44,910 nucleotides of DNA from the NCBI GenBank assembly GCA_023247915.1, contig JAHFFN010000008.1, forward strand, positions 1 to 44,910, given 5' to 3'. Origin of the DNA: Candidatus Omnitrophota bacterium. Its GTDB lineage: Bacteria; Omnitrophota; Gorgyraeia; 2-02-FULL-51-18. The notes beneath the pieces are model-generated. The model was given only the letters and a program-made list of their open reading frames with translations, was not told the DNA's origin and searched no databases. Shown here piece after piece: positions 4,646 to 35,369 of the stretch; the stretch's first letter is position 1, and every line of letters begins with the position of its first letter. The translations under genes and the position numbers were made by a program.

Positions 4646-5061
4646 AGTTTCTTTATTTTATCAAGAACTCCCAGAAAAAACTCCTTATCTTTCGAATGAG
4701 TTAAAAGTCCCGCAACCGCTTCCGGTTTGACCCAGCGCGCTTCCGGATTTTGGGGGTCTTGCGGAGCTAACTCGGTTTGATGGGCACGAAACAGAAAAAA
4801 AGTAAGGTGTTTGATCTCCGAGCGATCATCGCCGCCAGCCAAAGCGATCTTGGGGCGCTCATAACTGCCCAGCGCTTCGATAAGCGCCAACTCCTTCACG
4901 CCGGATTCTTCATAGATTTCACGGGTAGCTGCCTCCAAAGCGCTTTCGCCGGGATCTAGATGCCCCTTCGGAAGCGACCAGGAATTGTGATTTTGATTCA
5001 CCACCAACACTTCCCCGCTCACATTCACCACAATTCCGCCGGCGCTGTAGGTAATTTTCAT
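4642..5061 (-). CDS. Nudix hydrolase (MutT / Ap4A hydrolase type)
   Basis: A 139-aa Nudix protein that would hydrolyse a nucleoside diphosphate linked to another group. The Nudix box GHLDPGESALEAATREIYEESGV matches G-x5-E-x7-R-E-U-x-E-E-x-G-U exactly (given here as positions 33-55). The N-terminus SAGGIVV and SWSLPKGHLD resemble diadenosine tetraphosphate hydrolases, but the substrate cannot be read from sequence. It is the first gene of the unit that continues through yvcK, acyP, ligA, the lipoprotein gene and xerD. No Shine-Dalgarno is visible; a perfect -10 box ends 6 nt before the ATG, suggesting a leaderless transcript. Confidence 0.92.
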   Translation of the reverse strand: MKITYSAGGIVVNVSGEVLVVNQNHNSWSLPKGHLDPGESALEAATREIYEESGVKELALIEALGSYERPKIALAGGDDRSEIKHLTFFLFRAHQTELAPQDPQNPEARWVKPEAVAGLLTHSKDKEFFLGVLDKIKKL

Positions 5062-5067
5062 GGAAAG

Positions 5068-5076
5068 ATTATAGCA
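5068..5076 (-). promoter_or_regulatory. Extended -10 promoter of the Nudix-yvcK-acyP-ligA unit
   Basis: On the minus strand the sequence is TGCTATAAT, then CTTTCC, then the ATG at 5061. The hexamer is the sigma-70 consensus and carries the TGn extension. The start point expected 6-7 nt after the box falls on or beside the start codon. There is no good -35 box at 16-18 nt and no Shine-Dalgarno. Confidence 0.65.
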
Positions 5077-6269: not shown

Positions 6270-6278
6270 ATTATAGCA
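6270..6278 (-). promoter_or_regulatory. Extended -10 promoter of the MFS gene
   Basis: Minus strand reads TGCTATAAT followed by GCCTTCC and ATG (6262). This is the same arrangement as at the Nudix gene: consensus extended -10, a short pyrimidine-rich spacer, and a start codon with no Shine-Dalgarno. The upstream side overlaps the T-tract of the preceding terminator. Confidence 0.6.
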
Positions 6279-14071: not shown

Positions 14072-14170
14072 AATGACAAATAACAAAATTCAAATGACAA
14101 TTAAATTTCAAATTTTCAAATACCAAAACTTCTTCATTTGTAATTTGTGCTTTGACATTTGTCATTTTAT
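14072..14170 (-). repeat. AT-rich intergenic repeat, copy B (dapB-dapL)
   Basis: Plus strand starts AATGACAAATAACAAAATTC then AAATGACAA, and ends ATTTGTGCTTTGACATTTG then TCATTTTAT. It shares both ends with copy A (11138-11210), same orientation, with a longer and more diverged middle. Its distal end overlaps the dapB stop codon, just as copy A overlaps the panD stop. Confidence 0.75.
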
Positions 14171-14967
14171 TTCAACACATCCGCCATCGTGTACAGACCG
14201 TTTTTCTTTTTAGATAAAAATGCCGCCGCGACCAAGGCGCCCTTCGCAAACGCGTCGCGTGAAAGCGCGGTGTGTTTTAGCTCAATCGTTTCTCCAGGAC
14301 CGTGAAATAAAATCGTATGTTCGCCCACGATATCGCCGCCGCGCACCACATGAATGCCCAGCTCGTGACGACTCCGTTCCCCCGTCAGGCCTTGACGGCC
14401 ATAACGCGCCGCTTTTTTAAGATCCCAACCCTTAGCCTTTGCGATGACTTCGGCGATTTTTTTGGCCGTGCCGCTGGGCGCGTCCTTCTTTAAACGGTGA
14501 TGCGTTTCAATGATTTCAATGTCGTAGTCGCCGCCCAATCTGGAGGCCGCTAGCTCCGCCAACTCAAATAAAAAATTAGCGCCCAAGCTCATATTGGGAG
14601 AAAAAATGACGGGAATATTTTTAGACGCGGCGCGAATACGCAATGACAAGGGCTCCTCGATGCCGGTGGTGCCCACGACAAGCGCTGTTTTTGTCGCCAA
14701 GGCGGCATCCAAACACTTCGCTGTGCCCTCCGGCGATGAAAAATCGATCAACGTCTCGGCACCCTTTAGCGAAGCCGCCGATACCTCAGCGACTTTGACG
14801 CCGGCCTGCTTGCCAAAAGCCAAAGCCTCTCCGATGTCTTTGCCCAAACCTTTATTTTTGGCGCCTTCAAAAGCTCCGACGATTTTATAATTGGGTGATT
14901 CGTTGGCAAAATGTAAAATCCTAGCGCCCATCCGTCCCAGAGCGCCATTCATCGCGATTTTTGTCAT
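14167..14967 (-). CDS. dapB: 4-hydroxy-tetrahydrodipicolinate reductase DapB
   Basis: 266 aa. NAD(P)H-dependent reduction of the DapA product to tetrahydrodipicolinate. The N-terminal Rossmann loop is MNGALGRMG, followed by VVGTTG and FSPNMSLGANFLF. The catalytic histidine/lysine region ETHHRLKKDAPSGTA is complete, and HTILFHGPGETIELKHTALSRD is near the C-terminus. The ribosome site AAAGGA is 7 nt before the ATG. It starts 4 nt after dapA. Confidence 0.97.
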   Translation of the reverse strand: MTKIAMNGALGRMGARILHFANESPNYKIVGAFEGAKNKGLGKDIGEALAFGKQAGVKVAEVSAASLKGAETLIDFSSPEGTAKCLDAALATKTALVVGTTGIEEPLSLRIRAASKNIPVIFSPNMSLGANFLFELAELAASRLGGDYDIEIIETHHRLKKDAPSGTAKKIAEVIAKAKGWDLKKAARYGRQGLTGERSRHELGIHVVRGGDIVGEHTILFHGPGETIELKHTALSRDAFAKGALVAAAFLSKKKNGLYTMADVLK

Positions 14968-14971
14968 CGAC

Positions 14972-15850
14972 TTATCCTTTAATTGTCAGGCCGTAATCTT
15001 TCATAGCCTTCACTAATGTTTTTTCCGCGGCTTCGCTCAAAGAACAAAGCGGCAAACGCACCTCATCGCTACAAAGCCCCAAAAGCTTCATCGCACGTTT
15101 GACCGGGATAGGGTTAGTCTCAGTAAAAAGCGCTCGGCAAAGCGGAAATGTTTTGTAATGCGCTTCAGCGGCACCCGCGTGATCGCCTTTCAAATAAGCG
15201 TCTACCAGCTTGGCGATGTCTTCAGGGATAATATTGGCTGCGACGGAAATAACCCCTTTGGCACCCAGCGCCATCAGCGGCAATGTCAGCGAATCATCCC
15301 CTGAAAGAACGGTCAGATCGCACAAAGACATAATATGCGACGCCAAATCCATGTTACCCGTGGATTCTTTGACCGCCACAATGTTCTCAATCTTTGAAAG
15401 ACGTGCGATAGTCCCCGCCTCCAACGTCACGCTGGTGCGACCAGGAACATTGTAAAGAACGATGGAAATATCGACTGCTTCCGCGATAGCCTTGTAATGT
15501 TGATACAAACCTTCTTGTGTCGGCTTGTTATAGTAAGGCGTCACAATGAGCGCCCCATCCGCGCCGGCTTTTTTCGCAAATTTTGTGATCATGATCGCTT
15601 CGTCAGTGCTGTTGGAGCCTGTCCCCGCAATCACCGGCACTTCGCCGTTGGCTGCTTCCACCACCACTTGAATCACGCGCTCATGTTCTTCGTAGGACAG
15701 CGTCGGCGATTCCCCCGTCGTGCCCACCGGCACAATTCCGTCCGTACCCGCTTTGATTTGATATCGAACTAATTTTGCGAGTGCTTTTTCATCCAGCTGA
15801 CCGTTTTTAAACGGTGTTGCCAACGCGACCATGGATCCTTGAAATTTCAT
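14972..15850 (-). CDS. dapA: 4-hydroxy-tetrahydrodipicolinate synthase DapA
   Basis: 292 aa, normal length. Condenses pyruvate with aspartate semialdehyde, the committed step to lysine and diaminopimelate. Class I aldolase TIM barrel: [41 protein letters not shown], the tyrosine of [10 protein letters not shown] and the Schiff-base lysine in [20 protein letters not shown] is in the usual place. Its start overlaps the dapF stop (ATGA). Confidence 0.98.
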
Positions 15851-16653
15851 ACGGTGACTCTCCCTTCAAAACTGGTGCTGACCGGCCCCTTTAAATAGAC
15901 ATCATGAAAATTCATGCCGTCTCTTGAAAAAAATATTTCCAAAACCTCGCCGCCATGCGTATGCACCTTGACCGGGGAGGTGAAACTCTTAAGCGCCGCC
16001 GCGACCAACGCGCCCGCGGTGGAACCGGTGCCGCAAGCCAGCGTTTCATCCTCCACCCCACGCTCATAAGTGCGGATGGAAATAGAATTATCAAATCGTA
16101 TGGAAATAAAATTAGCATTTGCTCCGCGCGGCGCAAACTGAGAGTGCCGGCGAATCGCGCGACCCTGCGTGAACACATCAACTTCTTCTAATTTATCCGT
16201 GACCACCACCGCATGCGGCACGCCCGTATTAATAAAATGCATGTCCTGACGCTTTCCGTTCAAATCAATTGTCAGCCCCAGTTTCAAATCTTTCGGATCC
16301 GCCATTTTGACAGTCACAACGTCACCGCGCACTTCCGCGCCAATAAGTCCCGCGAGCGTATCAATGGTGAGCTTATCCTTGGCAATTTTTTTATCCACCG
16401 CAAATTTGGCCAAACAGCGCACGCCATTGCCGCACATCTCAGCTTCCGACCCATCCGGGTTAAAAATCCGCATTCCCACATCCGCCTTGGCTGATTTTTC
16501 CATCACAATAAGCCCGTCGGAGCCGATAGAGAGTTTGCGATTGGATAAACGCCGGGCAAGCTCGGGAAATCCGCTCTTGAGAGAGCCCGCGAGATTATCA
16601 ATCATAATAAAATCGTTGCCAGCACCGGCCATTTTTGAAAATTCAAGCGTCAT
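15847..16653 (-). CDS. dapF: Diaminopimelate epimerase DapF
   Basis: 268 aa from the ATG at 16653 ([15 protein letters not shown]); a 7-codon longer frame would overlap lysA and lacks support. Interconverts LL- and meso-diaminopimelate. Both catalytic cysteines are present in their motifs: [13 protein letters not shown] and [11 protein letters not shown]. The N-terminal [14 protein letters not shown] is diagnostic. It begins 1 nt after the lysA stop and ends overlapping dapA. Confidence 0.97.
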
Positions 16654-16654
16654 T

Positions 16655-17920
16655 TTATAGAACTTCCGTGACAATGCGTTCGTTTTTGATCAGGTCTTCG
16701 CGAGTTTCCCTTTTTCTGGCGACAAAAAATTTCTTTCCGCGAACCACGACTTCCGGCACACGCGGCCGTGAATTATAATTGCTCGACATCACAAAGCCGT
16801 AAGCGCCGCAGGACAACACTGCCAAGAGATCCCCCACCTTCACGGTCGCGAGCTTCCGATTCTTGGCCAAAAAGTCTCCGCTCTCGCAAATCGGTCCCAC
16901 AATGTCCGCCGTCTCGTAGCGCGGCTTGGCAGACTTCACAACCGGCAAAATTTCGTGATACGCGCCGTAAAACGCGGGACGAATCAAATCATTCATACCG
17001 CCATCCACAATCAAAAATGATTTTGTTTTGGCTCTTTTTTCATACAGGACTTTTGTGACCAAAATGCCGCTGTTGCCGGAGATAAAGCGCCCGGGCTCGA
17101 GCACGATTTTTAAGCGATCCTTGCGCGACAAAAACAGCGGCAAAATCACATTGGCAAATTCCTGCGCGGTTTGCGGTTTTTCTTTGGAATAAACAATGCC
17201 GAGTCCACCGCCGATATTCAAATATTCAATCGGATTACCTTTATACCCAACGCTGTCAATAAATTCCAAAACGCGCTTAATCGCCTTCACAAACGGTTTG
17301 GCGTCCGTGATCTGAGAGCCGATGTGAATATGCACGCCGGCCAGCTTCAAATGCGGGTAGCGATAGGCCTGCATAAAAAGTTTGTACGCTTCATCCATAC
17401 CAATACCAAATTTATTTTCTTTGCTGCCGGTGGTGATGTAGTGATGCGTGTCCGGCGCGACATCGGGATTTAAACGAATCGCTACTTTTTGAGTGGTCTT
17501 GAGCTTTCCAGCGATCTGATTGATCACCTCGAGCTCCTGCTCCGATTCCACATTAAACATCAAAATCTTGGAACGAATCGCCTCTTCGATTTCTTCGACT
17601 CGTTTTCCGACAGACGCGAAAACAATTTTCTGAGGATCCACACCGACTTTTTTAGCGCGAAACAATTCACCGCCTGACACAATGTCGAGACCCGAACCAT
17701 TTTTAACCAGCGCGTTTAAAACCGTCAGATTGGAATTAGCCTTCATCGAAAAACAAATCAGAGCGTTGACAGGCTTAAACGCTTCTTTAAGTTTCAAATA
17801 ATGATCCAAAAACGTGCCGATGCTGTAGAGATAAAACGGCGTCCCCACCTCTTTAGCAATCTTGGTGATTGGGGTTTCTTCGCAGTAAAATTCTTTGCCT
17901 TTGTATCCGAAACGATGCAT
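16655..17920 (-). CDS. lysA: Diaminopimelate decarboxylase LysA
   Basis: 421 aa, normal length. PLP-dependent last step of lysine synthesis. The PLP lysine lies in CFSMKANSNLTVL; GSGLDIVSGGEL, the HIHIGSQI motif, LNIGGGLGI, EPGRFI, the GPICESGDFLA active-site region and YGFVMSSNYNSRPR are all present. The ATG starts 1 nt after the argH stop, with AAAAGG inside the argH end acting as ribosome site. It links the arginine and lysine gene blocks. Confidence 0.98.
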   Translation of the reverse strand: MHRFGYKGKEFYCEETPITKIAKEVGTPFYLYSIGTFLDHYLKLKEAFKPVNALICFSMKANSNLTVLNALVKNGSGLDIVSGGELFRAKKVGVDPQKIVFASVGKRVEEIEEAIRSKILMFNVESEQELEVINQIAGKLKTTQKVAIRLNPDVAPDTHHYITTGSKENKFGIGMDEAYKLFMQAYRYPHLKLAGVHIHIGSQITDAKPFVKAIKRVLEFIDSVGYKGNPIEYLNIGGGLGIVYSKEKPQTAQEFANVILPLFLSRKDRLKIVLEPGRFISGNSGILVTKVLYEKRAKTKSFLIVDGGMNDLIRPAFYGAYHEILPVVKSAKPRYETADIVGPICESGDFLAKNRKLATVKVGDLLAVLSCGAYGFVMSSNYNSRPRVPEVVVRGKKFFVARKRETREDLIKNERIVTEVL

Positions 17921-17921
17921 G

Positions 17922-19304
17922 TTATGCCTTTTTTAGTTTATTTTTCCAAAAACCAATTTGTTTTTTAATTTCAGCTGGATGTGTGCTCCCCTGAGTCCGT
18001 TTGAGTCGCACGGAGTGCTCTGGATTAAAAAGATCGTACACATCCCCCTCGATCTTGGATTCAAATTGACGCAAAAGATCCAACCCCATTTTTGAAATGG
18101 CGACTTTCTTCTCTTCAGCAAAACTTACAATCTGCCCAACCACTTCATGCGCCTTTTTAAACGCCAACCCCTTACCCACCAAATAATCCGCCAAATCCGT
18201 GGCATAAAGCGACTCGTCTTTTAAAAGTTCCTTGGCTCGATCCGTACGAATCGACAATGTCTTCACAAGTCTTGAAAAAATGGGCAAAATGGTTTCGAGC
18301 CGCTCAACCGAATCAAACAAAAATCGCTTGTCCCACTGAAGATCACGGTTATACGACGTGGGAAGTGCTTTTAGAAGCGATAAAATCCCCACAAAATTAG
18401 CCGCGAAAGTGCTTGAGGCGCCGCGCACCAGCTCTACGAAGTCCGCATTTTTCTTTTGTGGCATCATGGAACTGCCGGTACAAAACGCTTCGTCGATATC
18501 AAACAGAGAGTTTCCTTTGGTCTGCCCAATCATCAAGTCTTCGGAGATTCTGGACAACTGCAGCCCCGTAAAGACCACGCAGGAAAGAATATTTAAAACA
18601 AAGTCCCGATCGCCGGAAACATCGTAGCTATTGCGTGTGACCTGAGAAAGCCCAAGTTCTTTGGCTATCTTTTTTTGATCCAATGGGAAGGTCGTGCCCG
18701 CAAGCGCTCCCGAACCCAGGACGCAGACATCAAAAAAGATTTGCGACCCCTGAAGCCTGAGAACCGCACGCTCCAACATTTCCGCCCACGCTAAAAATAA
18801 ATGCGCCGCAGAAATTACCTGCGCGTTTTGCAAATGCGTCATGCCTGGGATCAAAACCGCTTGGTTTTTCTCCGCCAAAACAACCAATTCTTTTTGAAGC
18901 GCCTGAATCTGCTGTATTAAAACTTCGGCGTGATTTTTGCAGTAGAGCCGCGTGCTTTGACTCACCAGATCATTCCGCGAACGCGCCGTATGGAGCTTTT
19001 TGGCCGTTTCGCCGGCTATTTTCTCAAGCTCCGCCTGCACCCAGGAATGCACGTCCTCATGCGCTTCGGAGGCCTTTAATTGCCCTGCTTGATATTTTTT
19101 TTCAAGTGCCGCGATGGCCTTGAGTAGCTTCGACGCTTCAACAGCGTTCAAAACACCGCATCCACGAAGTGCATTCACATGCGCGCGGTCAATTTTCAAA
19201 TCATAAGGCAAAAGACGATGATCCAACCACAGAGAATTCGAAAAAGTCTCAAATTCGCTGTCGATTTTCTTTTTAAATCGTCCGCCCCACAATTTTTTTG
19301 CCAT
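17922..19304 (-). CDS. argH: Argininosuccinate lyase ArgH
   Basis: 460 aa, normal length. Splits argininosuccinate into arginine and fumarate. Fumarase/aspartase superfamily: EDVHSWVQAEL, HTARSRNDLVSQSTRL, PGMTHLQNAQ (catalytic histidine region), and the signature GSSMMPQKKNADFVELVRG with the catalytic serine loop. The N-terminus WGGRFKKKIDSEFETFSNS is typical. AAGGAT stands 5 nt before the ATG. It follows argG after 9 nt. Confidence 0.98.
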   Translation of the reverse strand: MAKKLWGGRFKKKIDSEFETFSNSLWLDHRLLPYDLKIDRAHVNALRGCGVLNAVEASKLLKAIAALEKKYQAGQLKASEAHEDVHSWVQAELEKIAGETAKKLHTARSRNDLVSQSTRLYCKNHAEVLIQQIQALQKELVVLAEKNQAVLIPGMTHLQNAQVISAAHLFLAWAEMLERAVLRLQGSQIFFDVCVLGSGALAGTTFPLDQKKIAKELGLSQVTRNSYDVSGDRDFVLNILSCVVFTGLQLSRISEDLMIGQTKGNSLFDIDEAFCTGSSMMPQKKNADFVELVRGASSTFAANFVGILSLLKALPTSYNRDLQWDKRFLFDSVERLETILPIFSRLVKTLSIRTDRAKELLKDESLYATDLADYLVGKGLAFKKAHEVVGQIVSFAEEKKVAISKMGLDLLRQFESKIEGDVYDLFNPEHSVRLKRTQGSTHPAEIKKQIGFWKNKLKKA

Positions 19305-19313
19305 GGAATATCC

Positions 19314-20492
19314 TTATTTGGCTCTATTTCTGTAAGGAAGTGCCCACAGATCAATAAAACCTTTGGCTAATTTCTGGTCAAACTTGTCTTTAGCGCTATA
19401 GGTCGCCAAACTCTCATTGTATAAAGAGTAAGGTGATTTGCGCCCCACGACATGCGAAGAGTACTTACGCAATTTCACACGAACAGAACCTGTCACCGTT
19501 TTCTGTGTTGTCTCCACAAAAGCATCCAGCGATGTTCTGAGCGGTGTGAACCAAAGTCCGTAATACACAAGCTCCGCGTATTTCTGCGAAATCCCTTCCT
19601 TATAGTGAAGCAGTTCGCGATCCAGCACCAAACTCTCTAAATCTTTGTGAGCCTGGAGTAATATCGTCGCTGCCGGCGCTTCATACGTCTCGCGGGACTT
19701 GATACCCACCAAACGGTTTTCGATCATGTCCATGCGGCCAATTCCGTATTCGGCGCCTAAATCATTCAAATAAGCGATCAGTTTAAGCGCGTCCATTTTC
19801 TTTCCATCGACAGAGACGGGAATTCCTTTTTCAAATCCGATTTCAATCACGCGTTCTTTGGGATTTCTTTTCTCAGCGCCCTGCGTCCATTGAAAAGACT
19901 CCGTGGGAGGTTCGGTGTTGGGATCTTCTAACACACCCGCCTCCACACTCACGCCCCAAATATTTTTATCAATGGAAAACGGGCTCTTTTTAGAGACGTC
20001 GATAGGAATATGGTGCTTTTCCGCGTAACGAATCTCGTCTTCACGAGACTTGAATTCCCATTCGCGAACCGGGGCAAAAATCTCAAGAGACGCATCCAGC
20101 GCCTGCACCGTGACTTCAAAACGCACCTGATCATTTCCTTTTCCGGTGCAACCATGAGCTACTGCGGTCGCCTTTTCTTCATGAGCCACCGCCACTTGTT
20201 CCGCAGCAATAATGGGTCGTGATAAAGCGGTCGCCATCGTATAGCGTCCCTCATAAATCGCGCCGGCCTTGAGCGCTGGCCAAATATAATCCGTCGCGAA
20301 TTTCTTTTTCAGATCCCTCACAACGACTTTGGCGGCACCCGCTTTTTTAGCGCGTTCAATGGCCGCGGTCGTGGTTTTTTCTTGTCCCACATCCGCCATA
20401 TAAGCCACCACCTCATACCCTTTGTCTTTCAGCCACTTGATGGCGACCGAAGTATCGAGACCCCCTGAATACGCTAAGACGACTTTTCTCAT
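19314..20492 (-). CDS. argG: Argininosuccinate synthase ArgG
   Basis: 392 aa. ATP-dependent joining of citrulline and aspartate. N-terminal PP-loop AYSGGLDTSVAIKWL, then HGCTGKGNDQVRFEV (citrulline/aspartate site), SIDKNIWGVSVEAG, and GRMDMIENRLVGIKSRETYEAP. All expected motifs are present and length is normal. The start overlaps the argF stop (ATGA), so translation is coupled. Confidence 0.98.
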   Translation of the reverse strand: MRKVVLAYSGGLDTSVAIKWLKDKGYEVVAYMADVGQEKTTTAAIERAKKAGAAKVVVRDLKKKFATDYIWPALKAGAIYEGRYTMATALSRPIIAAEQVAVAHEEKATAVAHGCTGKGNDQVRFEVTVQALDASLEIFAPVREWEFKSREDEIRYAEKHHIPIDVSKKSPFSIDKNIWGVSVEAGVLEDPNTEPPTESFQWTQGAEKRNPKERVIEIGFEKGIPVSVDGKKMDALKLIAYLNDLGAEYGIGRMDMIENRLVGIKSRETYEAPAATILLQAHKDLESLVLDRELLHYKEGISQKYAELVYYGLWFTPLRTSLDAFVETTQKTVTGSVRVKLRKYSSHVVGRKSPYSLYNESLATYSAKDKFDQKLAKGFIDLWALPYRNRAK

Positions 20493-21526
20493 TTTCTTTT
20501 TTTCCTGGTCAGCAAAAGATACAAAAGTGCCTTCTGCGTGTGTAGACGATTTTCCGCCTGATCAAAAATCACCGAACGAGAGCTTTCGATCGCCTCATCG
20601 GTAATTTCCTCGCCGCGATGCGCGGGCAAGCAATGCATCAGCACCGTGTCCTTCGGCGCTTTGCTCATGATGGCGCTATTGATCTGGAACGGTTGGAAAT
20701 CGCGCAATCTCTGCTCGCGCTGTTTTTCCTGACCCATACTCACCCACACGTCGGTGTAAATGGCGTGCGCGTTTTTAATCGCGGTAAACGGATTGTTCGA
20801 CATCGTGACCTTAGAGCCGGTTTCCTTGCAAATGAGCTTGATATCTTTCAAGATCTCTTCGCTCGGTTCATAGCCGCGAGGGGTCGCGATTGCCAAATTG
20901 GCACCGACTTTGCACGCGCCATACAGCATGGAGTTCAGCACATTGTTGCCGTCTCCGATGTACGCGATGTTGAGCTTGGCCAGTGTCTTATTGAACTTTT
21001 CACGGATTGTAAAAAGATCAGCCAAAATCTGGCACGGATGATAATGATCGCTCAAACCGTTGATCACGGGCACGCCGGCATGCTGGGCAAATTCTTCCAC
21101 ATCCGAATGACGATGCGTGCGAACCACCACCGCGCTGCAGTAGCGCGACAACACGCGCGCCACGTCGCGAATCGATTCGCGCTCTCCGAGCGGCAATTCC
21201 TGGGGATCCATGTACACAGAGTTTCCGCCAAGCTCGGCCATGCCCACTTGAAATGAGACTCGCGTACGAATCGACGGCTTTTGAAACAAAAGTGCCAGCG
21301 ACTTGCCTTTTAATTTATTGGCGAAAGCCAAGGGATTTTTTTTCATCTTCTCGGCCAATTTAAAAATGGCATCGAGTTCCCCCGCGCCGGCTTCGCGCAA
21401 ACTTAAAAAATCTTTCGCGGCGAAAAGAGCGCCGGAAGGCTTCTTGGGCGCCGCCGCGGATTTGCCGGCGGATTTTGATTTCGCGCGGCTGGGTTTACTT
21501 TTCTTTTTAGACTTTGATTTACTCAT
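20489..21526 (-). CDS. argF: Ornithine carbamoyltransferase ArgF with basic N-terminal extension
   Basis: 345 aa. Makes citrulline from ornithine and carbamoyl phosphate. The carbamoyl-phosphate motif is QKPSIRTRVSF, followed by DPQELPLGERESIRD, HPCQILADL, YIGDGNNVLNS and the ornithine motif MHCLPAHRGEE. The core begins near residue 38 (DFLSLREA). The first 33 residues are almost only Lys, Ser, Ala and Pro (MSKSKSKKKSKPSRAKSKSA and on), unlike the usual protein of about 305 aa. No other ATG lies close to the core start, and GGGAG upstream of this ATG supports the long form. The argF identity rather than a transcarbamylase for another substrate rests on the HCLP motif and arg neighbours. Confidence 0.95.
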   Translation of the reverse strand: MSKSKSKKKSKPSRAKSKSAGKSAAAPKKPSGALFAAKDFLSLREAGAGELDAIFKLAEKMKKNPLAFANKLKGKSLALLFQKPSIRTRVSFQVGMAELGGNSVYMDPQELPLGERESIRDVARVLSRYCSAVVVRTHRHSDVEEFAQHAGVPVINGLSDHYHPCQILADLFTIREKFNKTLAKLNIAYIGDGNNVLNSMLYGACKVGANLAIATPRGYEPSEEILKDIKLICKETGSKVTMSNNPFTAIKNAHAIYTDVWVSMGQEKQREQRLRDFQPFQINSAIMSKAPKDTVLMHCLPAHRGEEITDEAIESSRSVIFDQAENRLHTQKALLYLLLTRKKRK

Positions 21527-21540
21527 ACCGATTTAACTCC

Positions 21541-22743
21541 CTATTTAATATTCAGACCACTCTCAGACTGCGCGGCCAAAACCTCATCCAAAATTTGAAT
21601 CGCGCGGTCTATTTCTTTTTCTTTCACGACCAGGGGAGGCATCAACCTCAACACATTGCCCTGCGTGCAATTAATCAGAAGTTTGCGTTTCAAGCATTCT
21701 TCGTAAATATTTTTTCCTTCCACTTCGAGCTCAACACCCGCCATGAGAGCCATGCCTCTCACCTCTTTGATCACGCGGTGTTTCTTTTTAAGCTCGTTTA
21801 ATTTTTTAAACAAATACGAACCGGTGATCACCGTGTTGTTTAAAAGTTTTTCCTTCTCAATCGCCTCAAAAACAGCCAGCGCGGCCGCACAAGCCAACGG
21901 ACTCCCGCCAAACGTAGTCGCATGCGTGCCAGGCTGCAGTGTATCGGCGATTTCCTTGCGAGCGACCATCGCTCCGATCGGAAAGCCTCCGCCTAAAGAC
22001 TTAGCCAACGTCATGATATCCGGCTCAATGCCATAATTTTTATAGCAAAACATGCGGCCGGTACGTCCCATGCCGGTCTGCACTTCATCCAAAATCAAAT
22101 AAATTTTTTTGTCATTGCAGAGCCGGCGTACCGAAGAAAGATACTGCGCATCGGCAACGCGGATCCCGCCCTCCCCCTGAATCGGCTCCAGCATGATCGC
22201 GACAGTTCGCGGTGTGATCGCGCGCTCCAACGCCGCAAAATCATTAAACGGGATATTCACAAACCCCGGCATCAAAGGCTCAAAACCTTCCTGGTATTTT
22301 TTCTGCCCTGTCGCGGCGATCGCGGACAATGTTCTTCCGTGAAACGAACGCTCTATGGTGATGATTTCATGGCGCGAGGGATTTCCGAGCTTCCGTACAA
22401 GTTTAAACGCGGCTTCATTGGCCTCCGCGCCGGAGTTACAAAAAAAGACTTTGCCTGGAAATGAATGGCGAATCACCTGCTCCGCCAACACCCCCTGAAG
22501 CTCATGATAATAATTATTGGAAACGTGTATCAGTTGCTCAGACTGGCGTTTGATCGCCTCGGTCACGCGCTTGTGACAATGTCCAAGCCCGCTGACGGCC
22601 CACCCCGGAAAGAAATCCAAGTATTCATCGCCATGGGAGTCCCACACGCGCGTGCCACGACCGCGCTCCAACACCAAAGGCGTTTTGGTGTAACAAGGCA
22701 CGACATAGTCGTAATACAACCTGATAATTTTTCTAAAATCCAT
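21541..22743 (-). CDS. argD: Acetylornithine aminotransferase ArgD
   Basis: 400 aa, class III PLP aminotransferase. Transfers the amino group to N-acetylglutamate semialdehyde. Motifs: RGRGTRVWDSHGDEYLDF, FCNSGAEANEAAFKL, FHGRTLSAIAATGQ, LDEVQTGMGRTG and the PLP lysine in TLAKSLGGGFPIGAM; the C-terminal NVLRLMPPLVV is typical. Such enzymes often also act on succinyl-LL-diaminopimelate, but with dapL present that role is not needed. The ATG starts 1 nt after argB. Confidence 0.96.
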   Translation of the reverse strand: MDFRKIIRLYYDYVVPCYTKTPLVLERGRGTRVWDSHGDEYLDFFPGWAVSGLGHCHKRVTEAIKRQSEQLIHVSNNYYHELQGVLAEQVIRHSFPGKVFFCNSGAEANEAAFKLVRKLGNPSRHEIITIERSFHGRTLSAIAATGQKKYQEGFEPLMPGFVNIPFNDFAALERAITPRTVAIMLEPIQGEGGIRVADAQYLSSVRRLCNDKKIYLILDEVQTGMGRTGRMFCYKNYGIEPDIMTLAKSLGGGFPIGAMVARKEIADTLQPGTHATTFGGSPLACAAALAVFEAIEKEKLLNNTVITGSYLFKKLNELKKKHRVIKEVRGMALMAGVELEVEGKNIYEECLKRKLLINCTQGNVLRLMPPLVVKEKEIDRAIQILDEVLAAQSESGLNIK

Positions 22744-22744
22744 G

Positions 22745-23614
22745 TTATCGCTTTACGATTTCGGTTCCGATACCCTTATCGGTAAAAATTTCCAAAAGGA
22801 TTCCGTGAGGAATGCGCCCGTCAATAATATGGGTTTTCTTGACGCCGCGGTCTAAGGCGCGGATACAGGCTTTGACCTTGGGAATCATGCCGCCGCTGAT
22901 CACGCCGGAATCAATCAAACCGTCCACTTCGGCAATGCTCAAATGCGAAAGCACCGACTCCGGATCTTTCTGGTCTTTCATGATGCCACGCACATTGGTC
23001 AGCAAAACAAGCTTGAGCGCGTTGAGTCCCCGCGCGATTTCGGCGGCGGATTGATCCGCGTTGATATTATAGGTAAAGCTGTCTTTCCCGATGCCGATCG
23101 GCGAAATCACGGGAATAATGTCACTAGTGATCATTTTTTGAATCACGTCGCCGTTAATTTTTGTGATCTCTCCCACAAAGCCAATATCGGTTCCGTCGAT
23201 TTCGGCGTGTTTACGAACCTCGATCAAATGATCTTCTTTGCCGGAAAGCGAAATAGCGCTTCCGCCCAACGAAATGATTTCTCGGACAATCTCGCGATTG
23301 ACCTTGGAAAGCTCTTCTTCCACCACTTCCATTGTCTCTTCATCGGTGACGCGAAAACCGCGGACAAACTTTACTTCTTTGCCAAGCTCTTCAATGCGCT
23401 TGGAAATGTACGGTCCGCCGCCGTGAACCAAAATCGGCCTCATACCCACATAACTCATAAACACAATGTCTTCCAAAACATTCCGGCGAATATCAATGTC
23501 CGTCATCGCCGCGCCGCCGTATTTGATGACAATGGTTTTGTCATAGAAGCTTTGGATGTACGGAAGCGCCTCGATCAGCACGTCCGCTTTTTTAATCATT
23601 TCTTTCATGGGCAT
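22745..23614 (-). CDS. argB: Acetylglutamate kinase ArgB
   Basis: 289 aa. Phosphorylates N-acetylglutamate, usually the regulated step. Amino-acid kinase fold: TIVIKYGGAAM, PILVHGGGPYISKRI, FVRGFRVTDEETMEVVE, the NINADQSAAEIARGL substrate region and GGMIPKVKACI. An N-terminal helix of about 20 residues (KEMIKKADVLIEALPYIQSF) is present as in arginine-sensitive hexameric ArgB, which fits feedback control by arginine; that is inference. AGGAGA lies 8 nt before the ATG. Confidence 0.97.
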   Translation of the reverse strand: MPMKEMIKKADVLIEALPYIQSFYDKTIVIKYGGAAMTDIDIRRNVLEDIVFMSYVGMRPILVHGGGPYISKRIEELGKEVKFVRGFRVTDEETMEVVEEELSKVNREIVREIISLGGSAISLSGKEDHLIEVRKHAEIDGTDIGFVGEITKINGDVIQKMITSDIIPVISPIGIGKDSFTYNINADQSAAEIARGLNALKLVLLTNVRGIMKDQKDPESVLSHLSIAEVDGLIDSGVISGGMIPKVKACIRALDRGVKKTHIIDGRIPHGILLEIFTDKGIGTEIVKR

Positions 23615-23625
23615 TCTAGCTTCTC

Positions 23626-24852
23626 CTAAGTCCGGTAAGCAGAGTTTATTCTTACGTAATTGGTTGAAAAATCGCAGGTGTACGCGGTCGCCGCGTATTT
23701 TCCCAAACCTAAATCAACGGTGATTTTAATATTTTTCTGCGCGAATACACGGTTGAGCACCGCCGCCTGCTTTTTGACCCGGCCGCCATTTCTCAGCACT
23801 AATTCTTTGCCTAGATAAATCTGCATTTTCCACGGATCCACATGCGCGCCGGAATAACCAACCGCCGCTGCGATGCGTCCCCAGTTAGGATCGCAACCGA
23901 ACAACGCGCATTTAAAAAGATTGGAGCTGGCCACCGCACGCGATACAAGTGTCGCGTCTTCATGCGTTTGTGCGCCCTTGACAGAAATTTCCACAAATTT
24001 GGTTGCGCCTTCGGCATCCCGGATCATGAGCTTGGCGATATGCAAAAAAATCATCTCCAGTGCTTTTGAAAAATCCCGGAACTCTTTGGTTTTTTCGACG
24101 ATTTTCTTATTTTGCGCCATGCCATTGGCCAAAATCACCACCATGTCATTGGTGGACATGTCGCCATCAATCGTAATAGTGTTAAATGTTTTCTGCATCG
24201 CCTGATCCAACGCGTCACGAAGCGCGTTGTGCGCGATCACGGCGTCCGTCGTCACAAAGCAAAGCATGGTCGCGTGCTTGGGCGGATGAAGCGCCATTTG
24301 CGGGTGAATCATCCCTGCGCCTTTAGCGATCGCGCCGATTTTAATTTTTCTTTTCCCGACATAAAGCTCGACGGCGATTTCTTTATTCATGCGATCCGTC
24401 GTCAAAATACTGGCAGCCGCAAGCTCCCCGCCTTGGCGGCTAGCTCCATGCACCAGCTCCGGAATCGCGTTTAAAATTTTTTTAATCGGCAGAGGCTTTC
24501 CAATCACACCGGTAGAAGCCACGAGCACGTCTTTTTTATTGAATTTGAGCGCCCGCGCAACCGCCAAACCCATGGCTCGCGAGTTTTCAAAGCCGCTTTC
24601 GCCGGTCATGCAATTAGCATTGCCGGAATTCGCCACAATCGCCTGTGCCCGGGCGTCTTTCAAATATTCTTTGTTGATCACCACGCAAGAGGCTTGAATT
24701 TTATTGGTCGTAAAAACGCCGGCGGCCAGACACGGCTTCTCGGAATAAATTAGCGCCAAATCTTTCTTTTTAGATTTTTTGATGCCGCAATAGAGCCCGT
24801 TGGCTTTAAAACCAATGGGAGCTGTGACGCCATGTTGAACCACTTTAATCAC
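23626..24852 (-). CDS. argJ: Glutamate N-acetyltransferase / ornithine acetyltransferase ArgJ
   Basis: 408 aa. Moves acetyl from N-acetylornithine to glutamate, recycling the acetyl group; many ArgJ also use acetyl-CoA. The self-cleavage site is at Ala194-Thr195 (KHATMLCF), with T195 as the nucleophile. KGAGMIHPQMA, TTDAVI, FNTITIDGDMSTND and the C-terminus ending TNYVRINSAYRT are canonical. No argA-type synthase is in the window, so a bifunctional ArgJ is plausible. The start is GTG, overlapping the argC stop (GTGA). Confidence 0.97.
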   Translation of the reverse strand: MIKVVQHGVTAPIGFKANGLYCGIKKSKKKDLALIYSEKPCLAAGVFTTNKIQASCVVINKEYLKDARAQAIVANSGNANCMTGESGFENSRAMGLAVARALKFNKKDVLVASTGVIGKPLPIKKILNAIPELVHGASRQGGELAAASILTTDRMNKEIAVELYVGKRKIKIGAIAKGAGMIHPQMALHPPKHATMLCFVTTDAVIAHNALRDALDQAMQKTFNTITIDGDMSTNDMVVILANGMAQNKKIVEKTKEFRDFSKALEMIFLHIAKLMIRDAEGATKFVEISVKGAQTHEDATLVSRAVASSNLFKCALFGCDPNWGRIAAAVGYSGAHVDPWKMQIYLGKELVLRNGGRVKKQAAVLNRVFAQKNIKITVDLGLGKYAATAYTCDFSTNYVRINSAYRT

Positions 24853-25874
24853 AGGCCTGCCCTTTCATCAAAACCCGACATGATATTCATATTTTGCACC
24901 GCTTGACCGGCCGCGCCCTTGCCCAGATTATCAATCGCCGTCACAATCACGGCGAGATTCTTGGATTCATTGACACGAAGCCCGATATCGCAAAAATTGG
25001 TATGCGCCACGTGCTTAATTTCCGGTAGCGCACCGCCTTCATACACCTTCACAAAGGGTTCGTTTTGATAAAATTTCTTGTAAAGCGCGATAAGCTCAGC
25101 TGTGTTTGTTTTTTTCTTGAGCTTCACGTAAATAGTGCTCAAAATCCCTCGATTGATCGGCAAAAGATGCGGCACAAACACCACGCTCACTTCTTTGCGC
25201 GTGGCACGCTCGAGCTCTTGATTGATCTCGGGCACATGCTGATGCTCAAAAAGCTTGTAGGCCTTGAAAGATTCGTTGACCTCGGAAAAATTAAGCGCTT
25301 TCTCGGCTTTCCGTCCCGCGCCAGTCACGCCGCTTTTGGCGTCAATGATGATAGAATCCAGATCCAACACACCTTTTTTAGCGCCGGCCAATATTCCTAA
25401 AATAGAGCCTGTCGGGTAACAGCCTGGATTCGCAATGAGCGTCGCCGATTTGATCTTGTCCCGATTGGCTTCCGGAAGACCGTACACCGCCTGGCGCAAA
25501 CTCACCAAGTCCTTGTGCTTGACCTTATAAAACTTTTCATAGATCGCTTCGTCTTTCAGACGATAATCCGCGCTGACATCAATGACTTTAATTTTGGCTT
25601 TCAAAAATCGCGGCGCAAATTCCTGGGAGACGGTATGCGGCAGAGATAAAAAAACCAGATCACATTTTTCCGCCGCTTCCTCAAATGAAAAAGCACGGCA
25701 TTCCAAATCCAGCGAATTTTTTAGATAAGGAAAAATATCCTGAATCTTAACGTCCCGGTCTTCTTTTCCGGAGACATACGTCAGCTCGGCCTGAGGATGC
25801 TTGGCGAGAATTTTTACAATTTCTTCGCCGGTATATCCGGTGGCTCCGACAACACCTACTCTAATTTTTTTCAC
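24849..25874 (-). CDS. argC: N-acetyl-gamma-glutamyl-phosphate reductase ArgC
   Basis: 341 aa. NADPH-dependent reduction of acetylglutamyl phosphate. Rossmann loop VVGATGYTGEEIVKIL, then LSLPHTVSQEFAP, the catalytic cysteine in IANPGCYPTGSILG, SGVTGAGRKAE and HQHVPEINQEL. The start is GTG with AAGGAA about 10 nt upstream. First gene of the long arg-lys-pan run; the promoter at 25923-25951 would leave a leader of about 40 nt with no visible attenuator. Confidence 0.98.
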   Translation of the reverse strand: MKKIRVGVVGATGYTGEEIVKILAKHPQAELTYVSGKEDRDVKIQDIFPYLKNSLDLECRAFSFEEAAEKCDLVFLSLPHTVSQEFAPRFLKAKIKVIDVSADYRLKDEAIYEKFYKVKHKDLVSLRQAVYGLPEANRDKIKSATLIANPGCYPTGSILGILAGAKKGVLDLDSIIIDAKSGVTGAGRKAEKALNFSEVNESFKAYKLFEHQHVPEINQELERATRKEVSVVFVPHLLPINRGILSTIYVKLKKKTNTAELIALYKKFYQNEPFVKVYEGGALPEIKHVAHTNFCDIGLRVNESKNLAVIVTAIDNLGKGAAGQAVQNMNIMSGFDERAGL

Positions 25875-29581: not shown

Positions 29582-29590
29582 ACTATATCA
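29582..29590 (-). promoter_or_regulatory. Extended -10 promoter of acsA
   Basis: Minus strand TGATATAGT followed by TTTTCC and ATG (29575). The hexamer is 5 of 6 to consensus with a TGn extension; the predicted start point is at the start codon. A weak -35 (TTTTCA) lies 17 nt upstream. Confidence 0.5.
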
Positions 29591-30032: not shown

Positions 30033-30881
30033 CTATTTCATATCGACAAATTCGATTTTCTTTTCTTTGGGGATGAGGCCACGCTCGAAGGCGGCTCTTT
30101 GGAGAAGCATCAGGCCTTCTTTGCCCTTCTTGCCCATATTGACGGTGAAATCATTGACGTACATGCCGACAAATTCATCGGCCGTTTTGGTGGGAATGCC
30201 ACGACCAAATTTCATGGCGTATTCGAGAGCCTCTTCACGATGCTTTAAGCCGTATTCAATGCTATCTTTTAAAATACGAGTCGTTTTACGCATCACGTCG
30301 CGACCCAGATTTTTACGGATCACATCAACGCCGAGCGGCAAAGGAAGCTTGGTCATTTCATAGAACCATTCACCCAAATCCACAACCTTTTTAAAACCCA
30401 GCGTTTCGTAAGTCAACTGGCCTTCGTGAATGATGAGCCCCGCATCCACTTCCCCGGCTTTTACCGCGTCGAGGATCTTATCGAAGGGAATTACCACTTC
30501 TTGAAACTTGGGCATAAAAATCCGGAGCGCCAGATAAGCGGTCGTGTTGAGCCCTGGCACCGCGATTTTTTTTCCTTCAAGCTCTTTAGGGTAAACGGAT
30601 TTGTTAGAAACCACGATTGGCCCATAATTTTCCCCGATACTCGCGCCGCAAGGCATGAGCGCGTATTTATCCGCGACCTGAAAAAAAGCGAACGCGGACA
30701 CGGCCGTCACTTCCAGATCGCCTTTAAACGCGCGTTTATTCAAACTCTCAATGTCTTCGATCACATGAGAAAATGTCATGCCATCAGTTTTGATTTTGTC
30801 ATGTGCGATCGCGTAAAACATAAACGCGTCATCGGGATCGGGACTATGCCCCACCCGTATTTTTGCTTTCACTAGAGCCAT
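30033..30881 (-). CDS. mqnD: 1,4-dihydroxy-6-naphthoate synthase MqnD
   Basis: 282 aa. Converts cyclic dehypoxanthine futalosine to 1,4-dihydroxy-6-naphthoate in the futalosine pathway of menaquinone synthesis. The motif VGHSPDPDDAFMFY near residue 10 is diagnostic of MqnD; the periplasmic-binding-like fold has VTAVSAFAFFQVADKY, GPIVVSNK, AVPGLNTTAYLALR and LIIHEGQLTYE. MqnA is related but lacks SPDPDD. It begins 5 nt after the small membrane protein gene and so belongs to the sdh unit. Confidence 0.93.
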   Translation of the reverse strand: MALVKAKIRVGHSPDPDDAFMFYAIAHDKIKTDGMTFSHVIEDIESLNKRAFKGDLEVTAVSAFAFFQVADKYALMPCGASIGENYGPIVVSNKSVYPKELEGKKIAVPGLNTTAYLALRIFMPKFQEVVIPFDKILDAVKAGEVDAGLIIHEGQLTYETLGFKKVVDLGEWFYEMTKLPLPLGVDVIRKNLGRDVMRKTTRILKDSIEYGLKHREEALEYAMKFGRGIPTKTADEFVGMYVNDFTVNMGKKGKEGLMLLQRAAFERGLIPKEKKIEFVDMK

Positions 30882-30886
30882 GGGAT

Positions 30887-31345
30887 TTATACCTTAAAAT
30901 AATTTCGTGTGGGTTGTTGAAAAAAACAAAATAAGATAACGCCGTTGACGATAGTCCAAAAAGGAAAACCGAGCAAACTTAGAACGCTGGTGGCGACTTG
31001 AAAATACCACGCCCATTTTTTACCGCGAAGAAGACCTAGCCCCATTACCACTGAAGAAATCGTGATGAGAAGCCCAATCGCCAAAATCGCGATCAGAATA
31101 ATATTCATCACATTAGCCGTGTTGATGGCGGAAAGATCCACATCGCCCATACTCGTCGTTTTGGAATATTGTGTGACCTGTGTTTGAAAAAAATGAGACA
31201 GACCTCTCATCACTGAGCCAAAAAGAAGGCCGAGTCCACCGATAAATATCATGACTGCTCCGAGGCCGGCCGTAATGAAATTAAGCACCGCCGTAAACAT
31301 CACAATGCCCGGCGCTTTCGGGGTCTCTGGGGAACTATTTTCCAT
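30887..31345 (-). CDS. Small membrane protein of the sdh-mqn unit
   Basis: 152 aa, family not recognised. A short polar N-terminus ([13 protein letters not shown]) is followed by about four hydrophobic segments (near 15-45, 75-100, 110-130, 132-146). RGKKWAWYFQVATSVLSLLG resembles small membrane proteins of unknown function with an RG-W-W motif. No catalytic residues seen. The ATG overlaps the sdhB stop (TAATG) with AAAGGAGAAG upstream, so it is clearly in the operon. It may assist the complex, but nothing in sequence proves it. Confidence 0.7.
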   Translation of the reverse strand: MENSSPETPKAPGIVMFTAVLNFITAGLGAVMIFIGGLGLLFGSVMRGLSHFFQTQVTQYSKTTSMGDVDLSAINTANVMNIILIAILAIGLLITISSVVMGLGLLRGKKWAWYFQVATSVLSLLGFPFWTIVNGVILFCFFQQPTRNYFKV

Positions 31346-32112
31346 TAATCTTCTCCTTTGATTTCGCTTTTGGGACTCAGCGAAGCTTTAAAATATTCGC
31401 GATTCATTCTGGCGATGAATTCCACGCTAATTTCTTTGGGACAAACAGCCTGACATTCCGACTGATTGGTGCAATTGCCAAACTTTTCGGCGTCCATACG
31501 CGCCACCATGTTTTCGACACGCGCTTTTTTCTCAACCTCACCCTGAGGCAACAGCGCCAAATGAGACACCTTGGCCGCCACAAAAAGCATCGCGGACGCG
31601 TTTTTACAAGCGGCCACGCAAGCGCCGCAACCAATGCAAGCCGCCGCGTCCATCACGGTCTCGGCAATGTTTTTGCCAATCAAGGTCGCGTTGGCGTCCG
31701 GTGCGCTTCCGGTGTTCACCGAGACAAATCCGCCTGCTTGAATAATCCGGTCAAACGCGCTCCGATCCACGGTTAAATCTTTGACCGGTGGAAACGCCTT
31801 TGCACGCCACGGCTCAATCGTGATGGTTTCGCCGTCTTTAAATTTTCTCATGTGTAGCTGACAAGTCGCTGTGCCGCGTTCGGGACCGTGAGGAATTCCG
31901 TTGATCACCAGCGAACACATCCCGCAAATCCCTTCGCGGCAATCGCTGTCAAACGCAATTGGTTCAATTCCTTGCCCGGCCAAACTCTCGTTCACCACAT
32001 CGAGCATTTCCAGAAAAGACATATGCTCGCTGATATTGTCGACATTGTATTCCGCCAGGCGACCCCGGTCGGTTGAATTTTTTTGACGCCACACACGCAA
32101 CTTCAGCTTCAT
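31345..32112 (-). CDS. sdhB: Succinate dehydrogenase / fumarate reductase iron-sulfur subunit
   Basis: 255 aa. Carries electrons between FAD in SdhA and the quinone site. [2Fe-2S] ligands C58, C63, C66 and C84 ([14 protein letters not shown]); [4Fe-4S] and [3Fe-4S] ligands in [11 protein letters not shown] (159-169) and C214, C220, C224 ([12 protein letters not shown]). The insert and spacing match the type-B enzymes of Bacteroidetes, Chlamydiae and related groups. The start overlaps sdhA (ATGA). Confidence 0.96.
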
Positions 32113-34022
32113 TTATAATTCCTCTCCGCCAAATGAATGCTTTCGAAGGTCAAAGGTTCTTTATGAAGCTCGGGCTTGGCGCCGACGCCTTTAAATTCCC
32201 ACGCGGCCGCATAGCAAAAATTGGCATCATCGCGCTTGGCTTCGCCTTCGGCGGTCTGGTACTCCGAACGAAAATGTCCGCCGCAGGATTCTTTGCGCTC
32301 CAAAGCATCCAGGCACATCAGCTCGGCAAATTCCATAAAATCCGCCACACGTCCCGCGCGCTCGAGTGACTGGTTAAAATCCTCGCCCTCGCCCATCACG
32401 TTGACATTTTTCCAAAATTCTTCACGAAGCACCGGGATTTTGGCCAGCGCAGTTTTGAGCCCCGCTTCCGTTCGCGCCATGCCGCAATATTCCCAAAGCA
32501 AATGTCCAAGCTCGCGATGAAATGAGGCCGGTGTGCGTTTGCCCTTCACGGATAAAAGTTTTTGAATCTTTGCGGTTGCCTCCGCTTCGGTTTTTTTAAA
32601 TTCCGCGTGATCAGTCGAAACTTTTGGTTTTTTATGCGTCGCGAAATAATCCCCGATGGTGTACGGCAAAATAAAATAACCGTCCGCCAGTCCCTGCATC
32701 AACGCGCTCGCGCCCAAGCGATTGGCGCCATGATCCGAAAAATTGGCTTCTCCCAACACAAATAGACCGGGAAGATTGCTCATCAAGTGATAATCCACCC
32801 ACAGACCGCCCATCGTATAATGAAGCGCTGGATAGATCCGCATCGGCACCTTATAAGGATTTTCGCCGGTGATGCGCTCGTACATATCTATCAGATTGCC
32901 GTAACGCTCGCGAATCGTATTTTCGCCAAGCCGCTTGATGGCGTCCGCAAAATCCAAGTACACCCCGCGGCCATGCTCGCCCACCCCGCGACCCTCATCA
33001 CAAACTTCCTTGGCACTGCGAGACGCGATATCCCTTGGCGCGAGATTGCCGTAGCTCGGATATTTTCTTTCCAGATAATAATCCCGTTCCGCTTCCGGAA
33101 TATCCCCCGGCGCGCGCTTGTCCCCTTTTTGCTTGGGCACCCAGATGCGCCCGTCATTGCGAAGCGATTCGGACATGAGCGTCAACTTTGATTGATAATC
33201 ACCGCTGACGGGGATGCAAGTCGGATGAATCTGTGTGTAGCAAGGGTTGGCAAAGAAAGCGCCTTTGCGATGCGCGCGCCAAATGGCGGTGACATTGCAA
33301 CCCACGGCATTGGTAGACAAATAAAAAGCGTTGGAATAACCGCCGGTCGCCAGCACCACCGCGTCCGCGGCATGAGACTCGATTTTTCCGGTGACAAGAT
33401 TGCGCGTCACAATGCCTTTGGCGTGACCGTCGACGACGACAAGCTCCAACATCTCGTGACGCGAATGCATCTTCACTTTGCCTAAAGAAATCTGGCGTTC
33501 TAGCGCTTGATAAGCACCCAAAAGAAGCTGTTGCCCCGTCTGTCCCCGCGCATAAAAAGTGCGCGAGACTTGAGCGCCACCAAAAGAACGATTGGCTAGC
33601 GTTCCGCCGTACTCCCGCGCAAAAGGCACGCCCTGCGCCACGCATTGATCGATAATCGCGGTGCTAATTTCCGCTAAACGATACACATTGGCTTCGCGCG
33701 CACGAAAATCTCCGCCTTTAATCGTGTCATAAAAAAGGCGCTGAACGCTGTCGCCGTCATTCTGATAATTTTTAGCGGCGTTGATGCCTCCCTGCGCGGC
33801 TATCGAATGCGCGCGGCGCGGACTGTCCTGGAAACAAAAGCAACTGACATTGTAACCAAGCTCAGACAAAGTTGCGGACGCAGACGCGCCGGCCAAACCC
33901 GATCCGACCACAATCACCTTGTATTTTCTTTTATTGGCGGGATTGACGAGTTTTAATTCAAATTTGCGGCTTTGCCATTTTTTTTCTAGCGGCCCTTGAG
34001 GAATTTTAGAGTCGAGTGCCAT
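32109..34022 (-). CDS. sdhA: Succinate dehydrogenase / fumarate reductase flavoprotein subunit
   Basis: 637 aa, the longer type-B form. Catalyses succinate-fumarate interconversion. The FAD-binding [17 protein letters not shown], the covalent-FAD histidine in [17 protein letters not shown], substrate-site motifs [18 protein letters not shown] and [11 protein letters not shown], and [22 protein letters not shown] are all present. Direction (succinate oxidation or fumarate reduction) cannot be decided from this subunit. Confidence 0.97.
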
Positions 34023-34025
34023 CTT

Positions 34026-34712
34026 CTAAAATCCTCCCGCGGGCTTTAACACGCCAAAAAGCGAGGCCATGGGAATGGAGCAATTGCCGATAAAAATTAA
34101 AAGTGCGATGAGTTTGGCGGCCGTTTTAAATACGGGCTGGGTTTTAACGTTATTGAGCCCCAACGATTGAAATAAGCTTGAGATCCCGTGACTCAAATGC
34201 AAACACAAGAAAAACATCGCCAGCACATACGTTCCCGCGACACGATAATCTTGAAAACCAAGAATCACCACCGAGTACAGATCGTGCCGGCCTTTGGCAT
34301 CCATCAGGCTATAAACCTCCGGATGAATTTTTCCAAATGTCAGATGTGCCAAATGAAAAATAACAAAAGCAAAAATAATAAGACCCGTCATCACCATGGT
34401 GCGTGACGCGAAGCTCGCCTGCACGGTATCTTGTACGGCGTAAGGAATCGGCCGGGCATTTTTATTTTCAATAGCCAACGATAAAGCGGAAATCATATGC
34501 GCGACAAGCGCTGTCAGAAGAATGCCCCGCGCGATCCAGAGCAATGCCCCAAAATCCTCCAGGTGCTCGGCGTAAGCGTTTAACGCTTCTTGCCCTAAAA
34601 ATATCTGAAGATTGCCAAGCATGTGAACAATCACAAACCCAAAAAGAATAAGACCGGTGACGGCCATGACGTATTTACGTCCAATAGAAGAGGTTATGAA
34701 AGGTTTGGGCAT
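34026..34712 (-). CDS. sdhC: Succinate dehydrogenase / fumarate reductase cytochrome b subunit
   Basis: 228 aa with five transmembrane segments, the single-subunit type-B anchor that normally binds two hemes b and reacts with menaquinone. Histidines that could bind heme occur in the membrane part: FVIVHMLGNLQIF, ALVAHMISAL, FAFVIFHLAHL and FLCLHLSHGISS. First gene of sdhC-sdhA-sdhB. No Shine-Dalgarno; a strong promoter has its -10 box only 6 nt before the ATG, so the mRNA may be leaderless. Confidence 0.93.
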   Translation of the reverse strand: MPKPFITSSIGRKYVMAVTGLILFGFVIVHMLGNLQIFLGQEALNAYAEHLEDFGALLWIARGILLTALVAHMISALSLAIENKNARPIPYAVQDTVQASFASRTMVMTGLIIFAFVIFHLAHLTFGKIHPEVYSLMDAKGRHDLYSVVILGFQDYRVAGTYVLAMFFLCLHLSHGISSLFQSLGLNNVKTQPVFKTAAKLIALLIFIGNCSIPMASLFGVLKPAGGF

Positions 34713-34718
34713 AAAAAT

Positions 34719-34747
34719 GTTATATAGAAAAATGATGAGTCCGTCAA
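34719..34747 (-). promoter_or_regulatory. Promoter of the sdhCAB-mqnD unit
   Basis: Minus strand TTGACG (34747-34742), 17 nt, TATAAC (34724-34719), then ATTTTT and the sdhC ATG (34712). Five of six matches in each hexamer and ideal spacing. The start point would be at the ATG. Confidence 0.72.
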
Positions 34748-34757
34748 CTAATCCTCT

Positions 34758-35369
34758 TTAATCCGCCGTGGATTTTTCAGCTTTAGAACCGCTCAAAAGC
34801 TTGGAAAGCTCCGCGCTATCGGTTTGCGCCTTTTTAAGACGAGCCGCCAACGACGCGCGTTCACTGTCACAGGATAAACTTTGAGCCTCCAACGCTTGAG
34901 TTTTCTTTAAAAGAGCGGAAATTTTAGCGGAGCTTTCTTCCTCGCGCTGGCTCAGATCGGCGATTTCCGTGTTTTTATCTTTTAAAAGCGCGGAGAGCTT
35001 GTCTTGATCGGCCTTGGCTTTCGCGGTCAACTCGGATAATTCGGCGTCTTTGGCTTTTAACGCTTCCGCATGCGCCGCCTCGGCCTCTTTTATTTGCGTA
35101 TCCAGTTCTTCAAGTTGAGTTTCTTTGGCAGCCAAAATACTTTCATGTTCCTGGCGGGAATCTTCAAGCTTTACTTCTAAATCATGAATCTGTCCCTGAA
35201 GCTCCGTGATCGCGGAATCTTTCTCGGTGTTGACGGTATTTATTTTGTAATTCAAATCACGCAGTTTTTCTTCTGCGGCGGTACGTCCCTCATTCTCATG
35301 CACCAAGAACAAAAGAAGGCCGACGCTGACCAGAAGATTGAGAATAAAAAATAGACGGTTTTTGTTCAT
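34758..35369 (-). CDS. Membrane-anchored coiled-coil protein
   Basis: 203 aa. One N-terminal transmembrane segment (LFFILNLLVSVGLLLFLV) and then a long, highly charged coiled coil from about residue 26 to 195 (heptads such as LQGQIHDLEVKLEDSRQEHE). Only one cysteine (LSCDSE) and no enzymatic motif. Likely a structural or scaffolding protein facing the periplasm or cytoplasm. Family not recognised. A 10-bp inverted repeat brackets its start codon, and no ribosome site is visible. Confidence 0.75.
   Translation of the reverse strand: MNKNRLFFILNLLVSVGLLLFLVHENEGRTAAEEKLRDLNYKINTVNTEKDSAITELQGQIHDLEVKLEDSRQEHESILAAKETQLEELDTQIKEAEAAHAEALKAKDAELSELTAKAKADQDKLSALLKDKNTEIADLSQREEESSAKISALLKKTQALEAQSLSCDSERASLAARLKKAQTDSAELSKLLSGSKAEKSTAD

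Follow-up and report, generated by a model that had tools for sequence, protein, structure and literature searches.

Of 953 bacterial genomes in one survey, 207 had a TANNNT motif located about 12 bp upstream of the start (PMC3160421). According to the same survey, the share of leaderless genes is about 20% for Actinobacteria and about 40% for Deinococcus-Thermus, the motif takes the TATAAT form at medium GC content, and a TG peak is present in Lactococcus. In Deinococcus, -10-like boxes in front of ORFs act as promoters (PMC12340547). The list of groups with leaderless genes in PMC3160421 does not include Omnitrophota, the phylum is not mentioned in PMC5397173, and no paper on leaderless genes in Omnitrophota was found in the literature searched.

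The locus described here lies in a stretch of 44,910 nucleotides (the window), which is one whole contig of a Candidatus Omnitrophota genome of 1.65 Mb in 81 contigs; 1.48 Mb of this genome was analysed. The operon sdhCAB is read from the minus strand. Its first gene, sdhC (34026..34712), for which a leaderless start is proposed, codes for the cytochrome b subunit of succinate dehydrogenase/fumarate reductase (228 aa). The match of its product to Pfam Sdh_cyt was just below the cut-off, and orthologues within the same family and order are 50–63% identical. The gene is followed by sdhA (32109..34022, minus strand), coding for the flavoprotein (Pfam FAD_binding_2 and Succ_DH_flav_C), and sdhB (31345..32112, minus strand), coding for the iron-sulfur subunit (Pfam Fer2_3). 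Because sdhA and sdhB carry clear Shine-Dalgarno (SD) sites inside the operon (GGGAGG before the ATG of sdhA, GGAGAGG for sdhB), both modes of translation start appear to be combined in sdhCAB.

The sdhCAB genes and that of a DUF2127 membrane protein are followed immediately by a menaquinone biosynthesis gene (30033-30881; VitK2_biosynth, MqnA/MqnD type). The region just upstream of sdhC (34758-35369) codes for a 203-aa protein with no Pfam match, the translation of which is coiled-coil-like in appearance. In relatives, sdhC and acsA are found on the same contig at a distance of about 4.6 kb, and the sdhCAB-to-acsA cluster seems to be conserved. Elsewhere in the window, genes for arginine and lysine biosynthesis lie in a row on one strand (14167-25874), with matches to N-acetyl-gamma-glutamyl-phosphate reductase, ArgJ, amino acid kinase, class III aminotransferase, OTCase, argininosuccinate synthase and lyase, a PLP decarboxylase (lysA-like) and DapB. 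The row looks like one ordinary operon.

Upstream of sdhC, the minus strand (34747-34710) reads TTGACG-N17-TATAAC-N6-ATG, exactly as given in the preliminary description. That description had also reported the lack of an SD site, and no SD-like stretch was found ahead of the ATG in the upstream sequence; the sole purine-rich stretch there, AGAGGA, lies about 40 nt before the ATG. The site resembles a sigma70 promoter in part: the -35 element TTGACG (34742..34747, minus strand) agrees with TTGACA at five of six positions, the -10 element TATAAC (34719..34724, minus strand) agrees with TATAAT at five of six, and the two are separated by a 17-nt spacer. The -10 element is joined to the ATG (34712-34710, minus strand) by a 6-nt discriminator, ATTTTT (34713..34718, minus strand). 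The position at which the -10 box deviates is its highly conserved final T, which is replaced by C, and a consensus promoter scanner did not list the site. The promoter had been called strong; since the -10 box is without its last T, that label seems overstated, and the strength of the promoter is doubtful.

The ATG at 34712 appears to be a sound choice for the start of sdhC, because the starts of the orthologues agree with it and Met16 is not conserved. In relatives, too, sdhC starts a few residues ahead of a conserved SSxGRK, at almost the same position. An internal start at the next Met, M16 (34667), was ruled out, as this Met is a Val in several orthologues.

These features suggest that sdhC is transcribed without a leader from a sigma70-type promoter, and that it is a member of a genome-wide class of genes with promoters close to the start codon. 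We give this reading a probability of roughly 0.8, and infer both the mRNA 5' end and the translation mechanism from the DNA. With the -10 box 6 nt before the ATG, RNA polymerase would start at or within about 1 nt of the A of the AUG, and from standard sigma70 geometry the A of the ATG is the expected +1. The sdhCAB mRNA would be leaderless at sdhC, where initiation would occur on a 5'-terminal AUG, and the SD sites would be used at sdhA and sdhB inside the operon. Across the genome, the near layout would apply to about a fifth (5-8 nt between -10 box and start codon, a distance denoted k) to about a third (k 5-12, leaders of a few nt included) of those first-in-operon genes whose promoter can be recognised. 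In the remaining ones, SD sites would lie in leaders of at least about 10 nt, often of about 20–35 nt.

Gene starts were called with a simple home-made codon-based caller, which yielded 435 first genes and 710 operon-internal genes. Promoters were scored with a fixed sigma70 matrix, and 149 first genes had a clear promoter. The distance from promoter to start in these 149 genes was bimodal (49 at k 5-12, three at k 13-16 and 97 at k≥17), and SD stretches of at least 4 nt were present in 70 of the 97 genes with far promoters (72%) vs 5 of the 49 with near promoters (about 10%; 3 of 32 at k 5-8). Two classes separated by a gap, and differing in this way in SD use, support the earlier suggestion of a lineage in which leadered and leaderless starts are mixed. 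As would be expected if the system is mixed, leaders too short for an SD site yet too long for leaderless initiation are avoided. The use of SD sites at the other starts is real, since SD stretches of at least 5 nt occurred at 21% of starts vs 5.6% of in-frame internal ATGs. The 16S rRNA gene, in which the anti-SD was sought, was not found in this MAG. The 5' ends of the mRNAs were not found to be less structured (mean -2.6 vs -3.0 kcal/mol, p = 0.24).

Genes of the near class start with ATG in 43 of 46 cases. Their promoters have an extended -10, mostly TGnTATAAT (T 53% and G 74% at the TG before the -10 box), and a weak -35. Unlike these usual near-class promoters, that of sdhC leans on its -35.

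A smaller second promoter group was seen at k = 9-12 before ATG (17 of the 149 first genes), as if leaders of 2–5 nt were also allowed. This group, together with sdhC orthologues at k 8-10, gives some weight to the alternative that transcription of sdhC starts 2–5 nt before the AUG or a few nt after it, so that the mRNA would have a very short leader or a different start. The overlapping TATATAAC also favours it, making the exact register of the -10 box ambiguous. The genome-wide peak is nevertheless at k = 6-7, the standard distance for a +1 at the A of ATG, and we regard such a shifted transcription start as possible but rather unlikely.

The full promoter was also searched for as a composite, defined as a TTGACA-like -35 (at least 5/6), a 16–18 nt spacer and a -10 box (at least 5/6) located 5–8 nt before the start. 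It was present in front of 8 of the 427–435 first-in-operon genes, none of the 710 operon-internal genes and 10 of 39,756 other ATG triplets. Dinucleotide shuffles of the same upstream regions gave a mean of 0.26 and a maximum of 2, vs the 8 observed. Such numbers do not favour the view that TTGACG/TATAAC is a chance resemblance in AT-rich DNA, with sdhC being transcribed mainly by read-through or from a farther promoter and translated by a non-SD mechanism on a long leader. Read-through would be possible, which counts against a leaderless sdhC, as only 45 nt separate sdhC from the end of the preceding gene on its strand. The missing last T of the -10 box speaks for read-through or chance as well. 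However, a TTGAC-N17-TATAGT-like promoter is retained immediately ahead of sdhC in relatives, and a read-through mRNA would likewise be without an SD site near the sdhC ATG. Transcription by these other routes is considered improbable, more so than a slightly shifted start, and a leaderless sdhC mRNA made from its own promoter is still preferred.

An excess of -10 boxes 6–8 nt before start codons, which had been set as a test by the preliminary description, was present. In the 1.48 Mb analysed, -10 boxes (at least 5/6) at k = 6-7 were found before 44 of the 435 first genes, vs a background of 11.2 (sd 3.8). The near -10 excess was confined to the first genes of operons, and the 710 operon-internal genes showed none at k = 6-7 (8 vs a background of 7.3). 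The same pipeline detected no excess in E. coli, a small control (3 vs 2.1 of 109). In the same k = 6-7 test, a genome of the same family (G006) gave 14 vs a background of 2.0, and one of another Omnitrophota family (G031) gave 15 vs 3.0. Plasmid DNA of D. deserti served poorly as a positive control, because its TAnnnT motif is below the TATAAT threshold used. Raw motif counts made without gene calls showed peaks of TATAAT-Nk-ATG at k = 6 (12 occurrences) and k = 7 (16), vs a mean of 4.4 elsewhere, and in such counts neither GTG nor TTG nor the scrambled triplets AGT, GTA and TAG peaked at k = 6-7. An artefactual origin of the excess, in AT-rich upstream DNA, ATG composition or the start caller, is very hard to credit, and as a full explanation it was refuted: the upstream regions are indeed AT-rich and the start calls home-made, but the peak appears in the raw counts and for ATG only, does not occur at other spacings and is missing both from operon-internal genes and from E. 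coli, and dinucleotide-keeping shuffles gave 4.6 vs 28 observed.

Three other genes in the window, Nudix, MFS and acsA, had been described as sharing the design of sdhC. This holds for the placement of the -10 box (N6, N7 and N6, respectively) and not for the promoter as a whole. The Nudix gene has the extended -10 TGCTATAAT (5068..5076, minus strand) in the arrangement TATAAT-N6-ATG (ATG at 5061), and the MFS gene has TGCTATAAT (6270..6278, minus strand) in the arrangement TATAAT-N7-ATG (ATG at 6262), each with TGC before the -10. In acsA, the -10 TATAGT (29582..29587, minus strand) is preceded by TGA and lies 6 nt before the ATG (29575). Because these three promoters bear an upstream TG and have little -35, they share with sdhC the spacing, not the full promoter type. 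As a conserved leaderless case acsA was ruled out, the near -10 being found only in this genome; in relatives acsA appears to follow another reading frame immediately and to lack a separate promoter.

Among the relatives of sdhC, seven orthologues (G001, G003, G006, G033, L103, L099 and L167; the last two with GTG starts) have a near-consensus -10 at k 6-10. The -10 boxes of sdhC relatives are TATAGT, TATATT or TAAAAT, and in several of them the -35 is TTGACT, TTGACC or TTGACG at 17-nt spacing. Several other relatives have k of about 24-30, mostly with an SD-like stretch. On the sdhC tree the short-leader state needs six changes, of which at least four are forced by supported branches; the orthologues appear to have switched between short-leader and SD-led states at least four times. 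The sdhC of a member of the Elusimicrobia (L148:2900-3010) has TGTGCA-N17-TAGAAT 9 nt before the ATG, and the layout may reach beyond Omnitrophota.

Motif counts across 117 Omnitrophota genomes gave 537 occurrences of TGNTATAAT-N6-7-ATG vs 304 with N13-14 (379 vs 237 in the same class, 158 vs 67 in other classes). The N6-7 excess was strong in some families (f1 19:0, f18 12:1, f39 28:5, f46 77:18 and f4 89:40) and absent in others (f30 39:36, f19 22:18 and f50 12:9), i.e. the excess recurs across the phylum, patchily. Gene-by-gene conservation of the near -10 among orthologues was weak (p = 0.067 and 0.016). We would give even odds to the view that leaderless initiation is a standing alternative across Omnitrophota which promoters enter and leave repeatedly, that at sdhC the leader and SD site have several times been lost or regained between related genera, and that the leaderless class has largely gone from some families.

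In the annotation of Omnitrophota genomes, start models based on SD sites would misplace many starts of first genes, and for heterologous expression such genes would need an added leader. With related genera that have an apparently leaderless sdhC and others that have an SD-led one, the cause and the cost of leader loss could be compared directly.

The closest described counterparts are the TA-led genes of Deinococcus-Thermus, in which, as here, a -10 box lies about 6–7 nt before the ORF and a second, SD-led class of genes exists (PMC12340547; PMC3160421). There the motif is TAnnnT and about a third of the genes are concerned (about 40% in PMC3160421), whereas the motif found here is TATAAT-like with an upstream TG and the share is smaller. 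Actinobacteria such as Mycobacterium likewise have mixed genomes with leaderless and SD-led genes (PMC3898074; PMC4633059; survey in PMC3160421). In Mycobacterium the transcripts have been mapped, whereas the layout described here is predicted from sequence and belongs to another phylum, with medium GC content and a TATAAT-type motif. The TA-led genes of Lactococcus also have an extended -10, seen as a peak of TG ahead of the Pribnow box (PMC3160421); Lactococcus is a low-GC member of the Firmicutes, unlike the Omnitrophota studied here. The mixture of leaderless and SD-led genes thus appears to be of a kind already known from Actinobacteria and Deinococcus-Thermus, and the new part, within the papers searched, appears to be its presence in the phylum Omnitrophota.
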